Shown here piece by piece: positions 8,965 to 52,082 of a DNA stretch of 55,331 nt. Source of the DNA: Nitrospirota bacterium. GTDB lineage: Bacteria > Nitrospirota > Nitrospiria > Nitrospirales > Nitrospiraceae. The first letter of the stretch is position 1. Every line of letters begins with the position of its first letter. The stretch lies in NCBI GenBank assembly GCA_040757595.1, contig JBFLWP010000021.1, positions 1 through 55,331 of the forward strand, in the 5' to 3' direction. The notes beneath the pieces were generated by a model, which saw only the letters and a program-made list of their open reading frames with translations, was not told the DNA's origin and did not search any database. The translations under genes were made by a program, and so were the position numbers.

Positions 8965-8973
8965 GAGATGATC

Positions 8974-9067
8974 GTGATGGGTGATGGGTGATGGGTGATG
9001 CGTCCCAAATTCTGAGGTCTCTCGGTTCGTTCTGCTACCCATCACTCATCACCCTTCACTCGTCACG
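8974..9067. repeat. heptad repeat hairpin, GTGATGG type, rluB/guaA junction
   Basis: Left arm 8974-9003 is four GTGATGG/GTGATGC units; right arm 9037-9067 is the inverted series (CCATCAC, TCATCAC, CCTTCAC, TCGTCAC). The 33-base loop is unique. The right arm ends one base before the guaA stop codon, so the element fills the gap between guaA and rluB on the transcribed strand. Confidence 0.85.
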
Positions 9068-10624
9068 CTATTCCCATTCAATGGTCGACGGCGGCTTGGA
9101 GCTCAGGTCGTAGACGACCCGGTTCACGCCCCGCACCTCGTTGATGATCCGGTTGGAGATCGCGCCGAGCAGCTCGACGGGAAGCCTGGCCCAATCGGCC
9201 GTCATCCCGTCCAGGCTCGTCACGGCCCGGACCGCGATCACGTTGTCGTAGGTCCGCTGGTCCCCCATGACGCCGACCGTGCGCACGGGCAGCAGGACCG
9301 CGAAGGCCTGCCACAGCTCCCGGTAGAGGCCGGCGCGGCGGATCTCCTGGTCCACGATCGCCTCGGCCTGGCGCAGGATTCTCAGCCGCTCCTGCGTCAC
9401 CGGGCCGAGCACGCGGATGGCCAGCCCCGGGCCGGGAAACGGCTGCCGCCAGATCAGGTTGTCGGGCAGGCCCAACTCCTTCCCGAGCACCCGCACCTCG
9501 TCCTTGAACAGCTCGCGGAGCGGCTCGATCAGGCGCAGCTTCATCCGCGTCGGGAGCCCCCCGACGTTGTGGTGGGTCTTGATCGTGGCCGACGGGCCCT
9601 TGAAGCTCACGCTCTCGATCACGTCCGGATAGAGGGTCCCCTGGACCAGATAGTCCACCGTCCCCAGCCGCTTGGCTTCGGCCTCGAAGTTCCTGATGAA
9701 GAGGCGGCCGATGGTCTTGCGCTTCCGCTCCGGGTCGGTCACGGACTTCAAGGCCGTGAGGAACTGCCCCGCGCAGTCCAGAAACCGGAGGTTCAGCTTC
9801 ATGGTCGTCGCGAAGGTTTTCCTGACCTGCTCCGCCTCGCCCTGCCGGAGGAGTCCGTTGTCCACGAAGACGCAGGTCAATTGCTTGCCGAGGGCCCGGT
9901 GGGCCAGGACGGCCGCGACAGAGGAGTCCACCCCGCCGCTCAGCGCGCAGATGGCCTTCCGATCCTTGACCTCATCGCGGATCTGGCCGACCGCCGTCTC
10001 CACGTAGGAGCTCATCGTCCAGGTGGGCTTGCAGCCGCAGATGTCGTACACGAAGTTCCGGAGGATCTTGACGCCGTTCTTGGTGTGCGCCACCTCGGGA
10101 TGGAACTGGAGGCAGTAGATCCGATGGTGGCCCCCGACCGACTTCATGGCCGCCACCGGCGAGTTGGCCGTGTGGGCGATGGACCGGAACCCCTTGGGCA
10201 TCCGCTCGATCCGGTCGCCGTGGGACATCCAGACCGGAGTGGACGGTCCGCCCGCCACGCCCTTGAAGAGATCCGACGCGTCGTCGATCAGCAGCTCGGC
10301 GCGCCCGTACTCCCGGTGCGGCGCCCTGGCCACCTCCCCGTCCAGCAGGTGCGTCACGAGTTGCATGCCGTAGCAGATGCCCAGGATCGGCAGGCCCGCG
10401 TCGAACAGCTGCTTGGGCACCAGCGGCGCCTTCCGGTCGTACACGCTGGCGGGCCCGCCCGAGAGCACGATGCCCTTGGGCCGGTAGGCCAGGACCGTGG
10501 CGAGCGGCGTCGTGCAGGGGAGGATCTGGGAGTAGACCTGCGCTTCGCGGATGCGGCGGGCGATGAGCTGGGTGTACTGGGAGCCGAAGTCGAGGATCAG
10601 GATTCTATCGTGCCAGAGTTCCAT
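9068..10624 (-). CDS. guaA: GMP synthase (glutamine-hydrolysing)
   Basis: Converts XMP to GMP. 518 residues, normal length. The class I glutamine amidotransferase domain (1-195) has the catalytic Cys in LGICYGMQL and His/Glu in [10 protein letters not shown]. The PP-loop ATP pyrophosphatase has [14 protein letters not shown] near residue 230. The dimerisation domain ends with the conserved [16 protein letters not shown]. It follows guaB on the same strand, 97 bases downstream, so the two steps from IMP to GMP are encoded together; the gap is filled by a heptad hairpin. Confidence 0.97.
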
Positions 10625-10629
10625 CGAAG

Positions 10630-10721
10630 CGTGAATCGTTAAACGTGAAACGTTAAACGAGGAAATCGTTGGAAAGGTTGCAGTTCTTACGTCTCACGAT
10701 TCACGTTTCACGTCTAACGTC
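10630..10721. repeat. heptad repeat hairpin, CGTKAAA type, guaA/guaB junction
   Basis: Left arm 10630-10659: CGTGAAT, CGTTAAA, CGTGAAA, CGTTAAA. Right arm 10689-10721: ACGTCTC, ACGATTC, ACGTTTC, ACGTCTA. Arms are inverted and separated by about 29 bases. The right arm abuts the guaB stop codon (10722-10724). The unit is different from the GTGATGG type but the architecture is the same. Confidence 0.8.
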
Positions 10722-12191
10722 TTATTCGCCCCAGTCCGTGCGGTAGTTCGGCGCCTCTTTGGTGATGATGACGTCGTGGACGTGTCCTTCGCGCAGACCG
10801 GCCAACGTCTGCCGGATGAACCGGGCCTTTTCCTGCAGCTCCGGGATCGTGCGGCAGCCGCAGTAGCCCATGCCGGATTTGACCCCGCCCACGAGCTGGT
10901 AGACGACGCCGGACAGGGTGCCCTTGTAAGGCACGCGGCCCTCGATCCCTTCTGGCACCAACTTGGCGGCGGGACGGCCGGCCTGGAAGTACCGATCCTT
11001 CCCTCCCCGCTCCATCGCCCCGATCGAGCCCATCCCCCGGTAGACCTTGTAGGTCCGCCCCTGGAAGAGCACGGTTTCGCCGGGCGACTCCTCGGTGCCG
11101 GCCAGGATGCCGCCGATCATGACCGCCGACGCCCCGGCCGCCAGCGCCTTGGTGACGTCGCCGGAATACTTGACGCCGCCGTCCGCGATGATCGGCACGC
11201 CGGAGCCTTTCAGCGCCGCCGCGCAATCCGCGACCGCCGTCAACTGCGGCATGCCAGCGCCGGACACGATCCGCGTGGTGCAGATGGAGCCGGGCCCGAC
11301 CCCGACCTTGACCGCGTCCGCCCCGGCCTTGAGCAGATCCTTGGCCGCCTCCGCGGTCGCGATGTTCCCGGCCACGACGTCCAGCGAGGGGTACTTCTGC
11401 TTCAGGACCTTGACCGTCTCCAGCACGCTCTCCGAATGGCCGTGCGCCGTGTCCACGACGACCAGGTCCACGCCGGCTCTCACGAGCAGCGCCGCCCGCT
11501 GGTCGGCGTCCGCGCCGACTCCGACCGCGGCCCCGACCCGCAGACGCCCGTGCGCGTCCTTGCAGGCGTGGGGATACTTGATGCGCTTCTCGATGTCTTT
11601 GATCGTGATCAACCCCTTCAACTCGCCCTTCCTGTTCACCACGGGGAGCTTCTCGATCCGGTACTCGTGGAGGATCTCGCGCGCCTTCTCCAGGCTCGTG
11701 CCCTCCGGCGCCGTGACCAGCTTCTCCTTCGTCATGACCTGCGAGACCTTGAGGTCCATTCGGGACTCGAACCGCAGGTCGCGGTTCGTGAGGATGCCGA
11801 CGAGCTTTCCGTTCCTGGTGACCGGAATGCCGGAGATGCGGTACCGGGACATGATCTCGTGGGCGTCGCGGATCGTCTGGTCCGGCGCGATCGTGATCGG
11901 ATCGATGATCATCCCGCTCTCGGACTTCTTCACCTTGTCCACTTCCGTCGACTGGTCTTCCGGCGAGAGCACCCGATGGATGATGCCGATCCCGCCCTCG
12001 CGCGCCAGCGCGATCGCCAGCCTGGCCTCGGTCACCGTGTCCATCGCGGCGCTGACGATCGGGATGTTGATCGTGATGGTGCGGGATACGAACGTTTTCG
12101 TGTCCACCGCGCTGGGAACGATCTTCGACTTGCCCGGGACGAGGACGACGTCGTCGTAGGTCAGGCCGACTCGCACGTCTTTCTCTAACAT
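10722..12191 (-). CDS. guaB: inosine-5'-monophosphate dehydrogenase
   Basis: Oxidises IMP to XMP with NAD. 489 residues. A (beta/alpha)8 barrel is interrupted by a pair of CBS domains (about 95-210; [20 protein letters not shown] and [16 protein letters not shown]). The catalytic loop [11 protein letters not shown] holds the active Cys, and the flap region [11 protein letters not shown] is present. All family landmarks are intact. Upstream of guaA in the same direction, forming a guaBA unit. Confidence 0.97.
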
Positions 12192-16480: not shown

Positions 16481-16588
16481 CCGTGACAGGTGATGCGTGA
16501 CGCGCAAAGAGACCGACGCGGAGACGCGGTGAGGGGTGCCGCGGATCGCCGTGTCGCCGCGTCCCCGTGTCGCGTACACCCATCACTC
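16481..16588. repeat. nested heptad repeat element with two unit types
   Basis: The outer units are GTGACAG, GTGATGC, GTGACGC (16483-16503) against ACCCATCACTC at 16578-16588. Inside them is a second pair of arms made of GACGCGG-type units and CGTGTCG, CCGCGTC, CCCGTGT, CGCG. It fills the whole gap between two convergent genes and runs into the ExeA-like gene's stop codon. Confidence 0.6.
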
Positions 16589-38546: not shown

Positions 38547-39421
38547 GGCAGTCCCAGCAGAACGGGCACGGCCAGGAGCCACAGGGTCTCGACGATCTCG
38601 TTGGTCGCCCCCAGCACGTCGCCGGTCGTCCCGCCCAGCAATCGCCGCGACCAGAGGCTCATCGCCCGAGCGACCCCGCCCGCGAGCAGAAGGCTCAGAA
38701 CGGCGCCGGTCGGCCCGAGCAGCCAGAGCAGGACCGCGCCCAACAGGCCCGTGGCCGCCAACAGGTGCCGCACGGTGAGGTGCCCCAGGAAGGGACCGGC
38801 CAGCCCTCCCTCGGCCCGTGCGTAACGGACGCCGTAGGCGCCCAGCACCATGCTCCAACGGCCGACGGCCGGCAGACAGATCAGCAGGTCGAACCGGTGC
38901 GTTTCCGACAGCACCGTCAGCCCCGCATAGCGGAGCCCCAGGTCCAGAATCAGGCCGGTCGCGCCGATCGCCCCGATGCGCCCGTCGCGCATGACGGCGA
39001 GCCGCTCTGCCGGCGTCCGTCCGCCCGCCAGCCCGTCCAGAAAATCGGCCAGGCCGTCCTGGTGCAGGCCGCGTGTCACCGCAACCAGCAGCAGGAGCAG
39101 CAACCCGTTCACCACGACCGGCGACAGGACCCGTGTCAGCAGGAGATCGCTCACGGCGAGGGCCCATCCCAGGATCAGGCCGACGGCTGGATACCAGAGC
39201 ATGGAGCGGGCCAGCTCCTCCGGGCGCGGATCGTGGGCGAGGCGGCTGAGAGGAACGGCGGTGAGGAAGTGCCAGGCCAGAAGAAAAGGACGTGAGACGC
39301 CAGACGTGAGACGTGAGACGTGAGACGTGAGATGACCAGAGGACGAAGAAGGCGCGCTTGCCGGTTGCGCTGTTTCCGCGCCGGTCGTTTCACCTTTCAC
39401 GTCTGACCTTTCACGGTTCAC
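38543..39421 (-). CDS. cobS: cobalamin synthase (adenosylcobinamide-GDP ribazoletransferase)
   Basis: 292 residues. Joins GDP-cobinamide to alpha-ribazole in the inner membrane. Family core: FLLAWHFLTAVPL, TRGLHQDGLADFLDGLAGG (metal-binding DGLAD), MRDGRIGAIGATGLIL and GTTGDVLGATNEIVETLWLLA; about six TM segments. The first 45 residues (up to GVSRP) have no counterpart in CobS and are translated from a heptad hairpin; even the GTG start at 39421 lies in a repeat arm. The cobT stop codon overlaps this start by 11 bases. Confidence 0.92.
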   Translation of the reverse strand: MNRERSDVKGETTGAETAQPASAPSSSSGHLTSHVSRLTSGVSRPFLLAWHFLTAVPLSRLAHDPRPEELARSMLWYPAVGLILGWALAVSDLLLTRVLSPVVVNGLLLLLLVAVTRGLHQDGLADFLDGLAGGRTPAERLAVMRDGRIGAIGATGLILDLGLRYAGLTVLSETHRFDLLICLPAVGRWSMVLGAYGVRYARAEGGLAGPFLGHLTVRHLLAATGLLGAVLLWLLGPTGAVLSLLLAGGVARAMSLWSRRLLGGTTGDVLGATNEIVETLWLLAVPVLLGLP

Positions 39422-40468: not shown

Positions 40469-41059
40469 CTACTTGATCCGGAGCGGAATCCCGCTCAGCA
40501 CGACGTGGACTTCGTCCGCCTCCCGGGCAACCAGTTGATTGACCTGCCCGGCAAGATCTCGAAACCGGCGGGTTTCCGCTTCCAGCGGGACCAGCCCCAG
40601 ACCGAGCTCGTTGCTGACCAGCAGAACCCTCGCAGAGGCGCCGCGGATCGCCGCCAGTAACGCCGCGACCAGCGACGGGACCTGCTTCTCGGACACGCCC
40701 CGCTCCCGCAGATTGCTCAGCCAGAGGGTGAGACAGTCCAGCACGACGACCCGGTAGTCGGCTCCGTGCTTCTCGAACCAACTGGCCAGGTCCACCGGGA
40801 CCTCGGACGTCTCCCATTCAGGTCCACGCGACCGTCGGTGCCGGCTGATCCGTTCCGCCATTTCCCCGTCCAACGGCTGGCCCGTCGCGACGAAGGCCTT
40901 CCTCCCCTTGCCCCCCGCGAGCGCCAGCGCCACGCTGCTCTTCCCGGAGGAAGCGCCGCCGACCACGAAGATGAGACGCCCCCTCGAATTGCGACGCGTG
41001 ACGCGTGACGCGTGACGCGTGAAGAAAGTCTTTATCTTTTGTCGCTTCCTACCCATCAC
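40469..41059 (-). CDS. cobU: bifunctional adenosylcobinamide kinase / guanylyltransferase
   Basis: 196 residues. Phosphorylates adenosylcobinamide and then transfers GMP to it. The P-loop GGASSGKSSVALALA and the guanylylated His in ISRHRRSRGPEWETSEVP are present, as are VVLDCLTLWLSNL and LVSNELGLGLVPLEAETRRF. The first 32 residues before LIFVVGG have no family counterpart and are encoded by a heptad hairpin (the run TRHASRVTRR is translated repeat). The start, GTG 41059 or ATG 41056, overlaps the cobQ stop TGA inside the repeat. Confidence 0.93.
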   Translation of the reverse strand: MMGRKRQKIKTFFTRHASRVTRRNSRGRLIFVVGGASSGKSSVALALAGGKGRKAFVATGQPLDGEMAERISRHRRSRGPEWETSEVPVDLASWFEKHGADYRVVVLDCLTLWLSNLRERGVSEKQVPSLVAALLAAIRGASARVLLVSNELGLGLVPLEAETRRFRDLAGQVNQLVAREADEVHVVLSGIPLRIK

Positions 41060-41073
41060 CTGTCACGTGTCAC
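40991..41073. repeat. heptad repeat hairpin, GTGACGC type, cobQ/cobU junction
   Basis: Left arm 40991-41023 holds four GTGACGC-type units; right arm 41051-41073 holds CCATCAC, CTGTCAC, GTGTCAC. The loop is 27 bases. It supplies the cobQ stop, the cobU start and about 25 N-terminal residues of CobU. Confidence 0.85.
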
Positions 41074-42591
41074 GGCTTCCACGCCCCGCTCGACGATGGC
41101 TTCGACCGCCGCAAGACCCACGTGCTCGGCCACAAAATCGGCCAGCCGGTCGATCGCCTGGTCGGTTGACAGCCCGGGCGAAGGATCGAGCGGAGCCCAG
41201 CCGCGCGCCGCCCGCAGCCGGTTGAGAAACGTGCGCCTGAAGGACGGCTGGTCGAACAGCCCGTGGACATAGGTCCCGATGACCCGCCCGTCGGGGGACA
41301 CGGCCCCCTCGGCCCATCTCCGCGACCGGTCCGGCTTCTGAAGGTCCAGGAAGGGGGTCACGCCAGGTCCGACCTTCGTCCGGCCCATGTGGATCTGGTA
41401 GCCCTCGACGGGACAGCCGCTCTCCCGATGGACGCCGACGACCTGGATCAGCACCTTTTTTCGGGCGAAACCGGTCATCACGTCCAGCAGCCCCAACCCC
41501 GTCACCTCCCGCTCACGCGATTCGACCCTGTGCGGGTCCCGAATCTTCATGCCCAAAAGCTGGTACCCGCCGCAGAGCCCGAGGACGGTGCCGCCCTCGG
41601 CCAGCACCCGCCTGGCGACCAGATCCAGCCCGCGCGCCTTGACGAACGCCACCGCTTCGGCGGTGGACTTGGTTCCGGGGAAGATCAGAGCGTCGAGCCT
41701 CTGTCCCGTCTCGCCCTTCAGCCGGACCAGCACCACGTCCGGCTCCTGGGCCAGGGCTTCGAAGTCGGTGAAGTTGGAGATGGCCGGTACGTCCGCCACG
41801 CCGATCGCCAAGAGGTCGTGACGGGTGACGCGTGACGGGTGACGCATGAGACATGTGCTCTGATCCTCCCAGCCCAGCGAATCCTCCTGGGGGACTTGAA
41901 GGTCTCCCCAATGGGGGATCACGCCGAGGCAGGGGACGCCGATCCGCTTCTCAACTTCCCTGATGCCGGGAGCGAGCAGGTCTCTGCTTCCGCGAAACTT
42001 GTTGACGAGAAAGCCCTTGACCAGACGCCGCTCCTCCGGCTCCAGCAGCTCCATGGTCCCGACCAGAGCCGCGAGAACGCCCCCGCGATCAATGTCCCCG
42101 ACCAGGATCACCGGCGCCCGTGCCTCCCGTGCCATCCGCATGTTCACGATGTCGTGCTCGCGCAGGTTGATCTCGGCCGGACTCCCGGCCCCTTCCAGCA
42201 CCACCAGATCGAACTCGGCCGCGAGACGGGCGAAGGCCTCGCGGACGGACTGGAACCAGTCCCGCTTGACGCGTCCGAAGTCCTCGGCCGTCAGGGCTCC
42301 GGCCACCGCTCCGTTCACGACCAGCTGCGCCCGCAGCCCTCCCTCAGGCTTGATCAGCACCGGGTTGAACTCCGTCCGTGGGGCCAGCCGGCAGGCCGCG
42401 GCCTGGACCGCCTGGGCACGACCGATCTCCCTCCCGTCCGGCGTGACGAACGAGTTGTTCGACATGTTCTGCGCCTTGAAAGGCGCCACCCGGAGCCCGC
42501 GGCGGAGAAACAGGCGGCAGAGCGCCGTCACGAGCACCGACTTGCCCACGTGGGAGCCGGTACCTTGAATCATGAGCGTCTTGGCAGCCAT
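41056..42591 (-). CDS. cobQ: cobyric acid synthase
   Basis: 511 residues from ATG 42591. Glutamine-dependent amidation of four side chains of adenosylcobyrinic diamide (also called CbiP). The N-terminal dethiobiotin-synthetase-like ATPase has KTLMIQGTGSHVGKSVLVTA; FKAQNMSNNSFVT, LEGAGSPAEINL and LVGDIDRGGVLAALVGT follow. The C-terminal class I-type triad domain has VLGLCGGYQLLG and ends with GTYVHGLFD. I reject the start at 42684 because its 31 extra residues are repeat-encoded. Around 41818-41852 a heptad arm is translated in frame as MRHPSRVTRHD. The last residues VTRDR and the stop also come from repeat. Confidence 0.94.
   Translation of the reverse strand: MAAKTLMIQGTGSHVGKSVLVTALCRLFLRRGLRVAPFKAQNMSNNSFVTPDGREIGRAQAVQAAACRLAPRTEFNPVLIKPEGGLRAQLVVNGAVAGALTAEDFGRVKRDWFQSVREAFARLAAEFDLVVLEGAGSPAEINLREHDIVNMRMAREARAPVILVGDIDRGGVLAALVGTMELLEPEERRLVKGFLVNKFRGSRDLLAPGIREVEKRIGVPCLGVIPHWGDLQVPQEDSLGWEDQSTCLMRHPSRVTRHDLLAIGVADVPAISNFTDFEALAQEPDVVLVRLKGETGQRLDALIFPGTKSTAEAVAFVKARGLDLVARRVLAEGGTVLGLCGGYQLLGMKIRDPHRVESREREVTGLGLLDVMTGFARKKVLIQVVGVHRESGCPVEGYQIHMGRTKVGPGVTPFLDLQKPDRSRRWAEGAVSPDGRVIGTYVHGLFDQPSFRRTFLNRLRAARGWAPLDPSPGLSTDQAIDRLADFVAEHVGLAAVEAIVERGVEAVTRDR
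41818..41852. repeat. solo heptad arm inside cobQ
   Basis: GTGACGG, GTGACGC, GTGACGG, GTGACGC on the plus strand, then ATGAGAC. There is no opposite arm within 100 bases. On the coding strand it is read in the CAC-rich direction, which is free of stop codons in every frame, between the ATPase domain and the amidotransferase domain of CobQ. Confidence 0.8.
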
Positions 42592-42597
42592 AGAGCC

Positions 42598-42700
42598 AGT
42601 GATGGGTGATGAGTGATCGGTGATCGGCTCGGAGATTGATGAGTGAGCACGTGCGTGAGCATTCCGCCTCTCATCACCCATCACAGATCACCCATCACTT
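42598..42700. repeat. heptad repeat hairpin, GTGATGG type, pduO/cobQ junction
   Basis: Left arm 42598-42627: GTGATGG, GTGATGA, GTGATCG, GTGATCG. Right arm 42669-42700: TCATCAC, CCATCAC, AGATCAC, CCATCAC. A loop of about 41 bases. It contains the stop codon of the adenosyltransferase gene and ends 7 bases before the cobQ ATG. Confidence 0.87.
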
Positions 42701-43291: not shown

Positions 43292-43399
43292 AACGATAAA
43301 CGATGAATGCAGAACGCTGAACTGCGAACTATGAATGATGACCCGTCACAAGAAGCCACAGGCTCAAGGTTCTGCGTTCATCATTCAGCGTTCTCATTT
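43292..43399. repeat. heptad repeat hairpin, ACGCTGA type, bluB/pduO junction
   Basis: Left arm from 43292: ACGATAA, ACGATGA, ATGCAGA, ACGCTGA, ACTGCGA, ACTATGA, ATGATGA. Right arm 43370-43399 has TTCTGCG, TTCATCA, TTCAGCG, TTCTCAT. It fills the intergenic gap and contains the bluB stop codon. The unit is another type from neighbouring elements. Confidence 0.78.
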
Positions 43400-48325: not shown

Positions 48326-48342
48326 TGAGAGTGAATGGTCCG

Positions 48343-48590
48343 ACAGACGGGTCTCCTGACTCGCGGATCGTCGCGCTCCCGCGCCTTCCCAGAACTTGTG
48401 TGATGGGTGATGGGTTATGAGTGATGGGGAAAGAAGCCAGTCATTCGCTCCTTACCCATCACCTGTCACCTATCACCGATCACCGCATTTCCAGTGGCTT
48501 CGTGCGGAATGGCTCCCCGCTTACAGTGGCGGCACCGTGATGGCTTCACACCATCTTCCCCGGCGCTGTCGGTCTATTCTCCGGTAGTCC
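48343..48590 (-). promoter_or_regulatory. cobalamin riboswitch upstream of btuB
   Basis: In transcription order on the minus strand the conserved blocks appear: GGGGAAGATGGTGTGAAGCC, CCGCCACTGTAAGCGGGGAG, GCCACTGG, GGGAAGGC and GAGTCAGGAGACC. They match the cobalamin (B12-element) aptamer. Binding of adenosylcobalamin normally lowers expression of the downstream gene, here btuB and what follows. The peripheral arm between GCCACTGG and GGGAAGGC is a heptad hairpin (48398-48484). Confidence 0.95.
48398..48484. repeat. heptad repeat hairpin in btuB riboswitch
   Basis: Left arm 48398-48429: GTGTGATGGGTGATGG then GTTATGA, GTGATGG. Right arm 48454-48484: CCATCAC, CTGTCAC, CTATCAC, CGATCAC. Loop 24 bases. 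It forms the variable peripheral arm of the aptamer. Confidence 0.88.
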
Positions 48591-48646: not shown

Positions 48647-48683
48647 CTCGTCACTCGTCATTCGTCACGCGTCACCCGTCACG
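48647..48683. repeat. heptad arm at the 3' end of btuD
   Basis: Units TCGTCAC, TCGTCAT, TCGTCAC, GCGTCAC, CCGTCAC on the plus strand. The btuD stop codon (48665-48667) and the last five residues fall inside it. An opposite arm at 48619-48636 is doubtful. Confidence 0.7.
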
Positions 48684-51733: not shown

Positions 51734-51822
51734 TGCACCCGCTCCTTCACCCTCACCCTTTCCCCAGCCCACGAGGGAAAGAAGGTCGTTCACCCGCTGC
51801 GTTGCAAAAGCAACGGGTACCC

Positions 51823-52082
51823 GGGCAGGTCTTCTGGCTTATGGATGCGGACCTACTCCCCGCCCCTTCCCATCTGAAAACCGTGACGCGTGATGCGTGA
51901 CGCGTGACCAGTTAGAAGAGCTTTTCGCTCAATTCTGAACCTGTCACCCGTCACCCGTCACGTGTCACTGTCTTCCAGACAGTGGTGTGCGCGGGTTTCG
52001 TCTCCATTCACAGCGGCGGGACCGCGAGGGATTCACACCCTCTTCCCTTGACCCGGAACAGCCTATGTCGGAGGCCAACTCT
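51823..52082 (-). promoter_or_regulatory. cobalamin riboswitch upstream of btuF
   Basis: Transcription order: GGGAAGAGGGTGTGAATCCC, GGTCCCGCCGCTGTGAATGG, CCACTGTCTGG, TGGGAAGG and AGCCAGAAGACCTGCC, the cobalamin aptamer blocks (the last slightly off the GAGCCAGGAGACC consensus). It controls the btuFCD group through the downstream terminator. The arm between CCACTG and GGGAAGG is again a heptad hairpin (51881-51968). Confidence 0.93.
51881..51968. repeat. heptad repeat hairpin in btuF riboswitch
   Basis: Left arm 51881-51909: GTGACGC, GTGATGC, GTGACGC, GTGACC. Right arm 51941-51968: TGTCACC, CGTCACC, CGTCACG, TGTCAC. The loop AGTTAGAAGAGC/GCTC..TTCTGAAC itself pairs. It sits in the same aptamer position as in the other riboswitch but uses a different unit and loop. 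Confidence 0.88.

Follow-up and report, generated by a model that had tools for sequence, protein, structure and literature searches.

A GTGAYGS heptad array in the interdomain linker of cobQ and the orientation of such arrays inside genes

How does a tandem array of seven-nucleotide units come to lie in frame inside a biosynthetic gene, and is its orientation the only one that the gene could have accommodated? A preliminary description of a Nitrospirota contig raised this question for cobQ. We analysed the whole stretch of 55,331 nt, hereafter the window, together with other genomes of the order, and asked where such arrays lie, which way they face and what becomes of their stop codons.

The array in the cobQ reading frame

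The host gene, on the minus strand at 41056–42591, is identified as cobQ (cobyric acid synthase) by a profile match (NF001989, 582.5 bits). Its reading frame extends without a stop as far as a GTG at 42684, with a likelier ATG start at 42591, near which CobQ homologues begin. Four exact GTGACGS units, arranged head to tail, occupy 41818–41845 on the plus strand, antisense to cobQ. They had been described as reaching 41852, but the exact units end at 41845 and the remainder is a degenerate fifth unit, ATGAGAC. In the cobQ frame, 41847–41815 of the minus strand encodes the peptide MRHPSRVTRHD, as first described, which corresponds to residues 280–290 counted from the GTG or 249–259 from the ATG. 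Periodicity is seen at lag 7 only. By eye the arm contains only two GGG tracts; a quadruplex of the GGGAATC type takes four G-tracts.

Frame translation bore out the proposed stop arithmetic: every frame contains a TGA when the arm is read in the GTGA orientation, and no frame contains a stop when it is read as in cobQ. The four pure unit types each encode a single cyclic heptapeptide, identical in all three stop-free frames. The arm scores 30.5, whereas 2000 sequences resampled from cobQ under a first-order Markov model gave at best 19, none reaching 20; a real four-unit, in-frame heptad array inside cobQ is thus confirmed. Within about 170 nt in either direction no opposite-strand arm exceeds a score of 7.5, so the arm is single, in agreement with the preliminary description, and a relaxed search at this cobQ gave no trace of a decayed second arm.

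The GTGAYGS family and its orientation inside genes

The cobQ arm belongs to a GTGAYGS family that consists mainly of inverted pairs at gene ends. A three-unit pattern, allowing at most one mismatch, occurs at 172 places (85 + 87) in the source genome (G000), compared with 0 + 1 for the reversed control, and is present in 66 of the 196 genomes examined from the order. A 1.25 Mb sample of G000 contains 112 arms, against 2 in the control, and 33 inverted pairs whose spacers have a median length of 31 nt. Five genome sets were analysed further: G000; G007, G025 and G035 together; G016; G002; and G019. The first comprises contiguous stretches, with genes called by an in-house simple codon-usage caller, and the other four comprise regions around pattern hits and are therefore a biased sample. 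Across these sets, all 138 opposite-strand neighbours within 80 nt have their GTGA ends facing inward, and seven neighbours lie on the same strand.

Most of the stronger arms lie outside gene bodies. Among 89 arms of G000 scoring at least 20, 41 are intergenic, 36 overlap a gene end and only 12 fall within called genes, even though 87–91% of the sample is coding. All 40 arms that lie over gene 3′ ends in G000 are in the sense orientation, and 38 contain the stop codon. Across the sets, 103 gene ends bear sense arms. Their stop falls in unit one of the arm in 41 cases, in unit two in 28 and in unit three in 26, lies just before the arm in 8, and is TGA in 90; a sequence with a stop in every frame would be expected to give this distribution. 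The 54 occupied gaps in G000 comprise 36 tandem, 15 convergent and 3 divergent ones, compared with 379, 82 and 146 among all gaps of at least 60 nt. Spacers of paired elements share no common sequence by eye. Selection for a specific hairpin stem, sought as covariation, was dropped as a candidate, since complementarity is no greater within a pair than between arms of different pairs (identity 0.812 versus 0.809, P = 0.36; duplex energy, P = 0.67).

The window holds several further members. Paired elements flank cobQ on both sides. One, at 42599–42698, lies at the junction with a PduO-type adenosyltransferase gene (pduO). The other, at 40993–41074, lies at the cobQ/cobU junction and includes the cobQ stop, a TGA that overlaps a possible GTG/ATG start of cobU (TGATG). 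In both G000 and G007, the second arm at this junction could encode an N-terminal extension of CobU. Two more paired elements, at 48397–48484 and 51882–51968, are located in the apical loops of cobalamin riboswitches (48328–48585 and 51807–52071, both minus strand), exactly where the RF00174 model has its apical loop; the loops measure 93 and 99 nt, compared with 5 and 4 nt in the model. Another pair is found at 8973–9068, and single arms at 16482–16504 (plus strand) and 48649–48683 (minus strand). Arrays of other units (TCAGCRT-like and GTGAAAC/GTGAGAC-like), paired or single, occupy 43299–43398, 10626–10722 and 39289–39414.

The orientation of arms inside genes was counted at an arm score of at least 18.5 and a gene score of at least 30. 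Of 57 such arms in the five sets, 50 are antisense, and hence stop-free, and 7 are sense; all 36 single arms are antisense. A genome-wide check for orientation bias, suggested in the preliminary description, therefore reveals a strong filter. Each of the seven sense arms is paired with an antisense arm. Their in-frame units retain TGA in 0 of 8 cases and their out-of-frame units in 23 of 24 (Fisher's P = 8.6e-7), although congeneric genomes were counted separately, so that the binomial and Fisher values overstate independence. TTA is the most frequent replacement for TGA in the edited units. As a control, antisense units keep the motif in all coding phases (58/63, 60/70 and 60/72).

The seven sense arms thus survive because their stop-phase unit lacks TGA, and these edited exceptions point to the in-frame stop as the cause of the orientation filter. 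The proposal that the orientation seen in cobQ is the only one compatible with a gene is accordingly supported in part: it describes all single arms and is right as a filter, but as an absolute it is overstated, given seven paired sense arms from which the stop-phase TGA has been lost in eight of eight units. Arms below 18.5 or in genes below 30 were excluded, including three sense candidates of G000 scoring 16–16.5 (C3:65046, C3:221649 and C4:44629), which do not resemble arrays, and sense arms in two weak reading frames (L375 and L397), whose in-frame units likewise lack TGA. When all sense arms of at least 18.5 are retained, TGA is present in 0 of 10 in-frame and 28 of 30 out-of-frame units. 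One antisense case, L396 in G002, translates as a YD repeat and could be a coding coincidence.

The preliminary description further held that arms can be gained or lost alone. This does not follow from cobQ by itself; support comes instead from an LPG_synthase_C gene in G007 and G025, which belong to one genus and are not near-identical strains. The sense arm has four units, one of them edited, in G007 and a single unit in G025, an exact in-frame difference of 21 nt, or three units. Arms can therefore change length alone.

The linker, its relatives and competing explanations

In CobQ, the arm lies in the linker between the AAA_26 (35–263) and GATase_3 (294–480) domains. An AlphaFold2 model built from 18 sequences has a mean pLDDT of 85.2, and its only internal segment below 50 spans residues 230–256, overlapping the arm at 249–259 in the same numbering; the PDB contained only distant matches, to the amidotransferase domain. 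This placement is common among the mutually unrelated host genes. In 27 proteins, 26 of 31 in-gene sites fall outside the listed Pfam stretches, 2 at an edge and 3 inside, whereas uniform placement would put 17.0 of 31 inside; the comparison uses the best stretch per family and leaves out two scanned proteins that have no Pfam match. The three arms inside a domain indicate that linkers are not the sole tolerated location. In a CbiA-type protein of G025, an arm at residues 134–144 occupies the corresponding linker, ahead of GATase_3 at 147. One Lhr-like helicase gene of G016 (L383, 1060–5439) carries four antisense arms, all between domains or at their edge, the last of which matches the position of an arm in G000 (C1:219681). 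Extra residues in the floppy CobQ linker probably do little harm, and the arm's peptide probably has no role beyond lengthening it.

We consider it very probable that the cobQ arm is a GTGAYGS-family array that settled or expanded in the flexible linker joining the ATPase and amidotransferase domains and has been kept by a reading-frame filter. Newly arriving or growing arrays would take either orientation, and those with an in-frame TGA would be removed by purifying selection acting on the reading frame. The survivors would be antisense arrays, or sense arrays in which the stop-phase unit has been mutated or deleted. Antisense arrays would be tolerated because 7 mod 3 = 1, which leaves every frame open and encoding the same cyclic peptide.

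Comparison across relatives, as had been suggested, revealed heptads at this position only in G019 among 29 aligned cobQ genes, and lag-7 periodicity in 2 of 32 CobQ sequences, again G000 and G019 (L039 and L062, both among the 32, apparently represent a single record). The G019 linker carries four units in the same codon phase, all of the GTGATG type, whereas those of G000 are all of the GTGACG type. Linker length and composition vary among the relatives; G000 shows a net gain of 18 nt and G019 one of 27 nt, neither a multiple of 7. The nearest cobQ relatives are about 73–75% identical, none of them both empty and close enough to display an insertion junction; the nearest named ones, at 63–74% identity, are Nitrospirae, Nitrospiraceae and Nitrospira MAGs. 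A single origin of the two arms finds no support in the CobQ trees, which separate G000 from G019; forcing them together, as a two-row group fixed before the tree was built, costs 19.6 lnL units (AU P = 0.029). Two gains would fit these data, and so would one gain with several losses and homogenisation within the array. A lone GTGAGGG just ahead of the G019 arm is consistent with a lost partner. We incline slightly to the view that the G000 arm was originally half of a paired element and that the other, stop-bearing half was later lost; that the arm stood alone from the start is plausible, if short of probable.

Other genera carry heptads of different sequence at orthologous sites, namely the pduO/cobQ junction, C4:198332 and the linker of an NFACT (RqcH-like) protein. 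The pduO/cobQ junction is also filled in L063, and other or partial arrays are found there in G007, G012, G018 and G019. In an unscored comparison, the arms at 42599–42698 look near-identical to those of L063 (2137–2239), including a variant GTGATCT unit, and the spacer has diverged; such a pattern between genera suggests constraint or homogenisation. The NFACT interdomain linker (L425–L452) has a period at lag 7 in 8 of 28 genomes and at lags 4–6 and 8–10 in none, and about six distinct units occur there across genera; an NFACT tree favours neither one origin of these arrays nor several. When two of these unit types were sought across 11 whole genomes, they proved plentiful in some genomes and scarce in others. 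A process advancing in 7-nt steps might rewrite arrays at permissive sites in Nitrospirales-type genomes, swapping in resident units, with reading frames editing the stop-phase unit; site and period would then persist as sequence turns over, most clearly in the NFACT linker. We put this forward only tentatively, as a possibility that we would not bet on.

A mobile origin is another possibility. On that view, a transposase would have moved the arm as an inverted-repeat insertion like those of Rickettsia palindromic elements or REPINs. The many dispersed inverted pairs of fixed polarity would suit such an element, as would in-frame entry into unrelated genes, which the accessible part of a review describes for the Rickettsia elements (PMC10969869). 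We nevertheless judge it unlikely, as unit families differ at orthologous sites and the spacers, compared by eye, lack a common sequence. The presence and copy number of REP/REPIN sequences track RAYT (Y1) transposases, and MITEs have conserved termini with target-site duplication. Y1 transposases (PF01797) are encoded in 138 of 196 genomes, but their copies do not follow heptad number: heptad-rich genomes (G000, G002, G016, G019 and G007) have one to four (3 in G000, 4 in G002, 2 in G016 and 1 in G019) and heptad-free ones up to 12, as in G066, G126 and G186 (12, 11 and 12 copies), which lack any GTGAYGS array. This informal comparison of counts shows no parallel that would point to a RAYT link.

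Alternatively, the arm could act in the cob operon, through mRNA pairing with the flanking GTGA arms or as the binding site of a heptad-recognising protein. Arms on both sides of cobQ and in the window's two B12 riboswitches are compatible with such a role, and the likeness of the pduO/cobQ arms of G000 and L063, unscored as it is, hints at constraint. We regard a function of this kind as improbable, however, given that only G000 and G019 have heptads at the site among the 32 CobQ sequences, that complementarity within pairs is no higher than between them and that in-gene arms occur in unrelated genes. Ordinary low-complexity linker coding, repetitive by chance, could draw on the variable length and composition of the CobQ linker, but is refuted by the cobQ resampling and further contradicted by the same units at 170-odd other places and by the restriction of periodicity to lag 7.

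Comparison with known heptad repeats

Among the closest known systems is the TAACTGA heptamer of Beggiatoaceae, which forms mostly intergenic direct repeats with a 7-nt step (MacGregor, 2015; PMC4679880). In the part of that report available to us, forward copies place a stop in every frame and overlap the ends of genes, and copies within ORFs are reversed. The two systems are thus alike in their 7-nt tandem units, in having stops in all frames and in running in reverse inside ORFs. They differ in the unit itself and in arrangement: TAACTGA arrays are nearly all unpaired and precede start codons, whereas most GTGAYGS arrays form inverted pairs at the 3′ ends of genes. Sense arrays in which a stop unit has been edited are not described in the same portion of the report.

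The GGGAATC heptads of Xanthomonas and the GGGGA(C/T)T heptads of Nostoc, typically of four units, have been studied in the former case as G-quadruplex formers (2015; PMC4692102). According to the available part of that study, Xanthomonas genomes carry 70–75 convergent inverted pairs each, and GGGAATC heptads are 89–93% intergenic, rare between divergent genes and found overlapping stop codons. GTGAYGS arrays resemble them in heptad units, convergent pairing, intergenic bias and stop overlap. By our own reading, GGGAATC has no stop in either direction, so no stop-based orientation rule would apply to it. Rickettsia palindromic elements lie in frame in many unrelated genes, and as outlined in the accessible part of the review (PMC10969869) are palindromes of about 150 bp, whereas the cobQ arm is a single direct array of 28 nt with no opposite arm nearby.

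Among the papers listed in our literature searches, which leave many subscription journals outside, none reported GTGAYGS heptads in Nitrospira or Nitrospirae. As far as the available parts of these reports go, the logic of a stop in every frame with only reversed copies in ORFs is already published for TAACTGA (PMC4679880), and convergent heptad pairs for Xanthomonas (PMC4692102). The features that are new here are stop-phase editing, linker placement and the occurrence, in one orthologous linker, of heptads with different sequences in different genera. Together, they capture the filtering of a stop-bearing repeat as it enters genes with an internal control, antisense arrays being unchanged and sense arrays persisting only where the stop-phase unit is edited or lost. 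Since 7 is not a multiple of 3, an antisense array gives the same peptide in any frame and can therefore lengthen a linker wherever it lands. Linkers that carry different heptads by genus offer natural material in which to ask why a seven-base period is so frequent among bacterial repeats.
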